This document shows, piece by piece, positions 31,350-32,814 of a stretch of DNA of 64,000 nucleotides. The position numbers and the translations under genes are program-made. Source of the DNA: Methyloversatilis sp. RAC08 (GTDB taxonomy: Bacteria > Pseudomonadota > Gammaproteobacteria > Burkholderiales > Rhodocyclaceae); contig NZ_CP016448.1 in NCBI RefSeq assembly GCF_001713355.1, forward strand, positions 1,550,001-1,614,000, written 5' to 3'. Position 1 is the stretch's first letter, and each line of letters starts with the position of its first letter. The notes beneath the pieces were generated by a model. That model did no database searches. It saw only the letters and a list, made by a program, of their open reading frames with translations, and had not been told where the DNA came from.

Positions 31350-32814
31350 CTATGCGGCGCTCGCCGGACGACGCAGTGCGACCAGCGCCCACAGCAGGCA
31401 ACCGATGCCCAGCGTGCCGCAGGCGAAGGTCCATGCCACAGGGGAGGTGATGCCCCCGGTCATGTCGAGCACGCCGCCGAACACCAGCGGTGCGATGAAA
31501 CCGGCCCCGAAGCCGCCGAGCGAATACAGCGCCATCGCCGCTCCGCGCTGTGCGGCCGGCGCAGCATGCACGAGGCCGGCGGTCAGCGAGGCCGAATCGG
31601 CCATCACGGCGATGTTGTACAGCGCCAGCACGCACAGCATGAGCCACCAGGGCAGCACCGCCGAAGCGCCGGCCAGCCAGCACAGCAGGCCCGAGGCGAT
31701 CATCATGGCGACGATCCAGCGCCGTCGCCCGACACGCCCGGCCATTTCGTTGCCCAGAATGCCAGGGTCTATTGAACTTGAATCGCGGCCGCGTTTGCAG
31801 CGCGCACGCCACGGACAAGGCGCACGACGAAGTCGAGACTGGCCGTCTCGACCAGGAGCGCAACGCAGTCCGTGGCGTGCACGCTGCAAACCCGAAGGGC
31901 GCGGGTCCTGTTGCGCCCAGCTCCGCGTTGGGCCTCCTGGCCTGACGGCCAGTCAGCCTGCGTCGGTCCGCCTTGATCTGGGCGCAACAGGATTCGCGCG
32001 CGGACACGATTCAAGCTCAACAGACCCTGATCGGCAGTCCGAGCAGATTGATCAGCGCAGCCGCTTCGGTCGGCGACAGCGCGGCCTGCGCCGACGACAG
32101 ACCGTAGGCGAACGCGATGAAGGCCACCATCCACGACCGCAGGCCGAACAGCTCCCAGCAGTGCACCGCATACCCGGTCACCAGCTGGCGCACCCGCGGA
32201 TGCGCCAGCACCGGTCCGAAGCGCGGCAGCCAGCGCGCGAGGGCGGCACCGGGTGGCGCATGCGGAGCGGTGGCCGCGAACACGATGACGGCCGCCAGCA
32301 GCGGGCCGACCGCCATCAGTGCGATCGCGATGCGCCAGTCCATCAGGCTGCCGAGGCCGCCGGCCAGCAGCAGCGACAGGCTGGTGCCGATGCCGAAACT
32401 CGCGGTGTAGAACGCGATCGGTCGATTGCTTGCGGCCGTAGACACGCGATCGGTCAGCACGCGCAAGCCGGGCATGTAGCAGCCGGCCAGCCCGGCGCCG
32501 CACAGCGCCTGGAAGAATGCGCCGCTCCATACGCCCCGGGCGAGCAGCGCGAAGCCCAGCGTGCCGGCTGCCATCAGCACGCAGGACGCGACATAGACGA
32601 GGCGCGCATCAATGCGGTCGGTGGCACCGGACAGAAAGGGCACGGCCAACATGTAGCCGAAGAAGAGGGCGCCGCCGATCAGTCCTGCTTCGGCGCCGCT
32701 GAGCCGCCATACCCCCGTCAGCAACGGCAGGAAGGACGGATACGCGGCAAAGCCGGTCATGCCCAGCGTCTCGGCGGCGCACATCAGCAGCGTGAGCCGG
32801 GCTGGCGGCGACAT
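31350..32814 (-). pseudogene. MFS transporter gene interrupted by a 267-bp element
   Basis: A major facilitator superfamily efflux-type transporter. The first part starts at 32814 (MSPPARLTLLMCAAETLGM) and covers about eight membrane segments up to ALINLLGLPI. It then runs into the inserted element and stops after RVC at 32017. The reading frame resumes beyond the element with ILGNEMAGRVGRR and continues to the normal end ALRRPASAA at 31350, covering the last four segments. The intact protein would be about 400 residues. A truncated 265-residue product could still be made but should be inactive. Confidence 0.9.
31763..32029. mobile_element. 267-bp MITE-like element with 31-bp terminal inverted repeats and internal hairpins
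   Basis: The terminal repeats 31763-31793 and 31999-32029 match at 27 of 31 positions and begin CAGGGTCT. Inside are two further long inverted repeats. Arm pair A is 31793-31816/31868-31891 (23 of 24 matching) with an inner hairpin GTCGAGAC/GTCTCGAC (31832-31852). Arm pair B is 31906-31920/31978-31992 (15 of 15) with an inner hairpin CTGGCC/GGCCAG (31937-31952). The whole thus folds like a two-armed cloverleaf. There is no open frame long enough for a transposase. No clear target duplication is visible. Confidence 0.88.

Follow-up and report, generated by a model that had tools for sequence, protein, structure and literature searches.

An insert at 31763-32029 of the window (the whole 64,000-nt stretch analysed here) splits an MFS transporter gene of Methyloversatilis sp. 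RAC08, which raises the question of what this insert is, how it came to move and what its folded interior is for. The sequence-only reading that singled it out had proposed a transposase-less mobile element that had broken the gene. Both gene halves match MFS_1 (PF07690; 1.6e-20 and 1.2e-8), and eight Methyloversatilis relatives (G001, G002, G005, G006, G007, G009, G011 and G012, seven of them rechecked) have TG at the site and no insert. The reading frame runs uninterrupted across the site in all five loci examined, e.g. LLGLPASILGNEMAG, and the break in the gene is thus confirmed. In a further relative, G003, a bare hairpin lies at the same right-hand junction and most of the gene is gone. 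Coding genes are interrupted by the element at two sites.

Sequence inspection and an inverted-repeat search of the window delimit a non-coding element bounded by terminal inverted repeats (TIRs). The search recovered the 31-nt TIRs as first described (27/31 identical, 87 %), together with the two independent inner inverted repeats, now measured at 27 nt (93 %) and 25 nt (88 %). Each of these arms had been said to carry its own inner hairpin; that of arm 1 was found by search (8/8), and the folds show one in arm 2 as well. Compared with the empty site of the relatives (GAATGC-TG-GCCGGCAG) the net gain is 265 bp. Thus, the element proper is either 31764-32028 (AGGG..CCCT) or GGG..CCC (31765-32027) with a 2-bp target copy on each side. 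The putative target copies are CA on the left and TG on the right, no longer a direct repeat. The features are as follows.

31350-31762, minus strand: MFS gene, 3' part (ILGNEMAG...); open reading frame, PF07690 1.2e-8.
31763-31793, plus strand: left TIR, CAGGGTCTATTGAACTTGAATCG..., with CA at 31763-31764 where the left target copy is expected; inverted-repeat search, ends set by empty sites.
31790-31816, plus strand: arm 1, 5' stem side; 27 nt, 93 % complementary to 31868-31894.
31816-31831, plus strand: loop repeat R1, CAAGGCGCACGACGAA; loop-motif pattern, arm alignment and loop-conservation count.
31832-31852, plus strand: arm 1 apical hairpin, GTCGAGAC-TGGCC-GTCTCGAC; inverted-repeat search (31832-31839 / 31845-31852, 8/8) and RNA fold.
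31853-31868, plus strand: loop repeat R2, CAGGAGCGCAACGCAG, an imperfect direct repeat of R1; loop-motif pattern and loop-conservation count.
31868-31894, plus strand: arm 1, 3' stem side; inverted-repeat search.
31891-31899, plus strand: tiny inter-arm junction hairpin, CCC-GAA-GGG; 2 bp when folded as RNA and 3 bp as DNA.
31899-31923, plus strand: arm 2, 5' stem side; 25 nt, 88 % complementary to 31975-31999.
31925-31940, minus strand: R2-like repeat of arm 2; sequence and reverse-strand self-match.
31942-31956, plus strand: arm 2 apical hairpin, CTGAC-GGCCA-GTCAG; read from the sequence, minimum-energy folds pairing this stretch differently.
31958-31975, minus strand: R1-like repeat of arm 2, CAAGGCGGACCGACGCAG on the minus strand; sequence and reverse-strand self-match.
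31975-31999, plus strand: arm 2, 3' stem side; inverted-repeat search.
31999-32029, plus strand: right TIR, ...CAACAGACCCTG, in which TG at 32028-32029 is the TG of the relatives' empty site; inverted-repeat search and empty sites.
32030-32814, minus strand: MFS gene, 5' part (MSPPARL...LLGLPI); open reading frame, PF07690 1.6e-20.

The general anatomy of this element type is a pair of TIRs of about 20-30 bp around two oppositely oriented hairpin arms. Within its large internal loop an arm contains the imperfect direct repeats R1 (CAAGGCGCGCGACG) and R2 (AAGGAGCGCAACGC), which flank a small apical hairpin. Shorter forms of the family have one arm or are reduced to a bare terminal hairpin.

The insert is neither a single-copy sequence without relatives nor normal coding sequence of the transporter, the two outcomes that would have spoken against mobility. 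By DNA similarity, matches are present in 12 of 61 genomes (its own and 60 relatives), including 10 of the 13 Methyloversatilis genomes, and full-length copies are 85-90 % identical. Besides it, its own genome contains a single diverged copy (76 % identical) and, at C1:397102-397152, a bare terminal hairpin. A terminal-repeat scan of 13 genomes (at most three mismatches, paired by eye, unpaired matches excluded from the tally) gave 11 full-length elements (265-279 bp), a single one of 165 bp and, at 51-87 bp, 18 short hairpins. Separately, AGGGTCTGTTGGCTCAACATCG occurs once each in five genomes (G000:C1:3813968; G003, G007, G009 and G012) with no partner listed, and is perhaps orthologous non-element sequence.

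A pattern built on the arm loop extends the family well beyond the reach of DNA similarity. It matches 17 of 395 genomes of the taxonomic family, where a reversed control pattern matches none of the 395 and at least one of the true matches (G005) looks coding. In named genomes it finds at least 118 stretches, 76 of them loci with a terminal repeat round the arm; the other 42 include contig ends, duplicates of known loci and coding-looking matches (e.g. under Streptomyces, Natrinema and Paenibacillus titles). Those 76 loci yield 77 rows, which by length alone divide into 52 of two-arm length, 18 of one-arm length (one of which, L169, is a contig-end artefact) and 7 odd ones. Among the matches listed, delineated members occur in Polaromonas, Herbaspirillum, Nitrosovibrio, Thiobacillus, Chitinolyticbacter, Variovorax, Burkholderia and Uliginosibacterium, and one-arm members in Arachnia propionica (Actinomycetota) and another Propionibacteriaceae genome. 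The same architecture is found, then, across Betaproteobacteria and, in its one-arm form, in Arachnia. For two members (L136 and L150) the contig titles read Rhizobium sp. (MAG) and Gammaproteobacteria bacterium (MAG), reflecting either a wider host range or mis-binned contigs. Sizes are mostly 155-280 bp; a 345-bp member (L320, G434:C54) has an extra hairpin nested within one arm, suggestive of arm insertion or growth.

The sharing of R1 and R2 among members is partly built in, and loop conservation has to be read with care, because the search pattern fixed most loop-repeat positions. Several pattern-free loop positions are nearly constant (37, 37 and 36 of 39 arms in R1; 35, 33 and 39 of 39 in R2 and just past it), and others are variable (30, 28, 27 and 22; 25, 22 and 14 of 39). 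In the stems the commonest letter occurs in 11-28 of the 39 arms per position, and once in 36. The R motif, allowing three substitutions, is also present in 19/19 locus rows of 240-300 bp, equal to 11 elements, that were found by terminal repeat alone in Herbaspirillum-type genomes, these genomes having themselves been reached via the loop pattern. A plasmid search with three copies (one each from the window, Herbaspirillum and Polaromonas) returned no match, nor did a phage search with the window copy. No name or description of the family was recognised in the literature searched, including those parts of the review PMC10969869 that were seen, with ISfinder outside its scope.

Which transposase could mobilize such elements is indicated by their ends. 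In Herbaspirillum sp. GW103 the cloverleaf terminal repeat also bounds one 855-bp unit with an IS5-family DDE transposase in two frames, the shared ends being identical at 19/20 and 18/19 positions. A 907-bp IS5-family unit of Methyloversatilis G009 resembles cloverleaf L002 of the window's genome at its ends (15/17 from GGG on at either end, with exact blocks of 14 and 12). Arachnia propionica has a unit of 961 bp, with a reading frame of 294 codons, that carries the 17-bp end of the one-arm elements (17 and 20 identical). All three insertion sequences (ISs) match NF033580 (transpos_IS5_3); two of them have TA on both sides, and the Arachnia unit has TAA/TAA. Since the outer ends match an NF033580 IS of the same genome in two cases (Herbaspirillum GW103 and Arachnia propionica) and of the same genus in one (Methyloversatilis L002 and the G009 IS), that transposase most likely acts in trans.

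Beyond the ends, direct comparison of element and matching IS in the three pairs gave nothing at E<0.1, other matches being 9-10 bases long at E 0.17 or worse, and the loop repeat is present in the three ISs not beyond chance. In these three pairs, where the ends alone match, the element is thus not a deleted copy of the matching IS. The search for a parent IS had a divided outcome, with end-matching IS5-family ISs in only three genomes, each of a different genus, and, in the window's own genome, no NF033580 match above the cut-off (best 8.4e-8), from which it follows that the window copy is probably immobile now. NF033580 is above the cut-off in 1 of the 13 Methyloversatilis genomes. For ends of the GGRNCCTCTGATTAAGTC / GGRNCC kind, inspection by eye of the matches listed in 10 genomes, many of them fragmented assemblies and one matchless, gave no inward pair at 0.7-2.5 kb and no parent. 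A candidate autonomous element, G003:C43, with two arms 3.6 kb apart, was dropped after the open reading frames between the arms had been read.

Terminal repeats differ between hosts and are of several kinds (e.g. GGGTCTGTTGACA, GGGCCTGTTAACGC, GGAACCTCTGATTAAGTC, GAACCCATTTCATAAATA and GAGGGTGCGCGGATAG); the arm module is found behind several unrelated ones. Several local arrangements of these repeats were also recorded. The left end of the Herbaspirillum IS (L314:540-1394) runs inward into GGGTCTGTTAAC, the terminal-repeat kind of other cloverleaf members, which may be the remnant of a former end. The same orthologous left flank (..GTGATGGCGCCCG) immediately precedes a cloverleaf, a decayed one and the 907-bp IS (L029, G003:C39; L023/L430, G007:C41; L334/L428, G009:C15); the right flanks of IS and cloverleaf differ there, which could mean exchange between IS and passenger via shared ends. 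Arachnia propionica (G435) has 174 matches to its 16-bp terminal repeat at up to two mismatches, and a bare 42-bp terminal hairpin in L427. The Sulfuricellaceae genome MAG_58 (G419) has 67 terminal-repeat matches listed, many within about 200 bases of contig ends, so near-identical copies seem to break the assembly. Three same-strand matches about 5.46 kb apart (G423:C6:23799, 29263 and 34725; L323), partnerless among the matches listed, look as if part of a large tandem unit.

Insertion sites are informative as to target choice. Relatives have TA at the empty-site junction of L002, L008, L011 and L020; where the window copy and L012 sit, they have TG. The L008 insertion matches its empty site exactly. 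The empty-site state of L006 and L018 is ambiguous, and the presumed empty site of L007 still carries terminal-repeat sequence. In scripted counts by end type, perfect 3-bp direct repeats flank 7 of 10 GAGGG-type members (inverted, 0), and perfect 4-bp direct repeats flank 7 of 20 GGA-type rows, three of them the non-palindromic CTAA/CTAA. TA/TA flanks 5 of 8 GAAC-type and 22 of 44 AGGG-type members, TA/TG being next among the latter (9) and the other half having no TA/TA. Some Methyloversatilis junctions agree with a model in which nothing is duplicated, X[AGGG..CCCT]Y; direct repeats at the remaining end types speak rather for a duplication that would have diverged later.

Two sites have flanks of another kind, in which the left is the reverse complement of the right, namely the window site (CA / TG) and the full L006 copy (TGA / TCA). 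The L006 site exists in three states, with a full element in G009, a perfect 51-bp terminal hairpin in the window's genome and nothing in G003 and G012. Flanks of the bare hairpin there (TG / CT) are reverse-complementary in part only, and the flanks at this site fit neither plain duplication nor plain insertion. The full, bare and empty states at L006, together with the bare hairpin of G003 at the MFS site, indicate that bare hairpins can arise in place by arm loss. Template switching is reported, in the sections of PMC8794818 seen, to create and repair stems, and the reverse-complementary flanks, few in number, may be read as inverted-repeat correction by that route.

Taken as a whole, the window element appears to be of the kind called a MITE: at 265-267 bp it is too small for a transposase, and it has TIRs, multiple copies and polymorphic empty sites. 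Target-site duplication is seen in relatives, the window copy having CA/TG. Mobility without a transposase of its own is supported by the empty sites, the multiple copies and the IS5-family ISs with matching ends. On sequence comparison, and with good confidence, the element appears to be a miniature transposon that is non-autonomous and for whose movement IS5-family transposases probably act in trans, built round a two-arm core with R repeats rather than from a deleted IS. The transposase would insert it at TA-containing targets, which would be duplicated in the process.

Why the interior should be folded is a separate question. Folded as RNA, the window element reaches -174.3 kcal/mol (z -12.1), and as DNA -101.8 kcal/mol (z -11.2), with 0 of 200 shuffles as good in either case. 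The predicted fold is a three-way junction with a tiny hairpin between the arms, and the same junction is predicted in 75 of 77 two-arm rows, a set that includes orthologous copies and in which both failing rows are of the L092 locus, one per direction. The loop of arm 2 had no role in finding these rows. Among 39 non-redundant arms, stem strands are on average 32 % identical. At one fixed offset, however, stems pair with their own partners by Watson-Crick rules at 72 % of positions (lowest member 20 %), against 33 % (SD 2 %) with shuffled partners and 21-34 % at other offsets. Rows L096, L107, L132, L099, L115, L169, L100 and L076 were left out as doubtful before this comparison and L098 and L019 were further dropped from the fold comparison; the 39-arm set still holds two L092 rows (one reversed) and L098. 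The covarying stems support the earlier suggestion of selection for folding, though template-switch homogenisation of inverted repeats can also yield covariation. G-T and A-C mismatches in the arm stems do not separate cruciform, single-stranded DNA and RNA as the folded form that matters.

Most likely the core aids the element's own mobility or persistence, an RNA role and palindrome homogenisation being the serious rivals. How it would do so is put forward speculatively: as a single strand at the replication fork, or once supercoiled DNA has extruded it, the cloverleaf might set both ends side by side, and the loop repeats might be offered to a putative factor common to the hosts, thereby aiding mobility or persistence. 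Complementarity of the stems would be maintained by selection, by template-switch correction between arms or by both, and arm deletion would leave the bare terminal hairpins. A more far-reaching reading, less likely than not, is that the folded core is a selfish non-coding module, present in two phyla, that swaps ends to ride the resident IS5-family transposase and whose loop repeats would be bound, as single-stranded DNA or as a cruciform, by a shared host factor.

A doubtful but substantial alternative is that the cloverleaf is kept for the sake of RNA. Co-transcribed with its neighbours, it would provide arms that act as stability, attenuation or processing signals and loop repeats that form a site for RNA-protein or RNA-RNA contact; such roles have been proposed for other repeats of bacteria. 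The very stable fold and the partly conserved loop positions are consistent with this, as are 14 G-U and 0 A-C mismatches at stem position 6 of arm 1, 11 and 8 at position 7, and 44 against 24 in the TIRs. Apart from those two positions, however, the arm stems have G-U and A-C mismatches in nearly equal number (26 and 25 in the remaining 18 positions of arm 1), so that there is no sign of one favoured RNA strand there; the comparison is a weak test because the element can be read from either side. Rfam gave no match at E≤1 in window 31500-32300 and none at the gathering score in 12 other loci, and the interruption of coding genes at two sites also counts against an RNA role.

An interior without function is unlikely, if still to be reckoned with. 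Template switching during replication would then homogenise the palindromes, the stems would covary without selection and the loops would merely be slower to change. The published capacity of that process to make and mend stems and the reverse-complementary flanks of the window and full L006 copies speak for such a course. However, several pattern-free loop positions stay conserved between genera and between the two phyla, at a stem identity of about 32 %, the three-way junction recurs in all but the two L092 rows, and the flanks of the bare L006 hairpin lack full reverse complementarity. Self-driven movement as folded single-stranded DNA, in the manner of IS200/IS605 and REP/RAYT elements and with an incidental likeness to IS5 ends, is very improbable: several AGGG-type junctions without a direct repeat and a fold that joins both ends would suit such a route, but ends identical to those of IS5-family ISs in three genera and the perfect 3-bp and 4-bp direct repeats of GAGGG-type and GGA-type members do not.

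The usual reading of a bacterial MITE is as an insertion sequence that has suffered deletion, with a single parent. In the present case, several genera from two phyla have a similar folded core, identified from its structure and loop motif and not from overall sequence, enclosed by the ends of IS5-family elements that differ. The new findings are that the IS5 family probably mobilises it, that its hosts are widely spread, that its ends are modular and that the loop repeats are shared. It becomes testable whether folding of passenger DNA or RNA affects mobility and whether passengers can switch transposase partners. Through the full, bare and empty states at one locus and the reverse-complementary flanks, template-switch correction of palindromes may be naturally recorded in this family. 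In practical terms, copies can account for pseudogenes, and probably for some assembly breaks, in these genomes.

Like IS5-family MITEs, the cloverleaf elements are short and non-coding, have TIRs in common with an IS of the same genome or genus, use a TA-containing target and occur in multiple copies. Unlike them, they have a cloverleaf interior without similarity to the IS, a recurrent two-arm junction and shared loop repeats, and in the various genera, from two phyla, the cloverleaf occurs behind several terminal repeats that are unrelated to one another. BOX, RUP and SPRITE elements resemble the cloverleafs in a partly modular build and also have a link to ISs; we know of no cloverleaf with R repeats among them, nor of an exchange of ends between IS partners. 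As small interspersed repeats that form stem-loops, those elements of Streptococcus pneumoniae are similar to the present family (PMC3049150, as far as its text was available). The cloverleaf family, however, lives in different hosts. REP/BIME sequences with RAYT are likewise hairpin-forming interspersed elements with units often oppositely oriented, REPs being described in the portions of PMC3733652 seen as 20-40 bp long, with GTAG or CGTC tags and tyrosine transposases. Cloverleafs, mostly 155-280 bp long and with IS5-type ends, differ from REPs in both length and tag sequence. In integron attC sites, structure is conserved and sequence varies; the present elements similarly keep a cloverleaf shape while their sequence changes, yet with an architecture different from that of attC.
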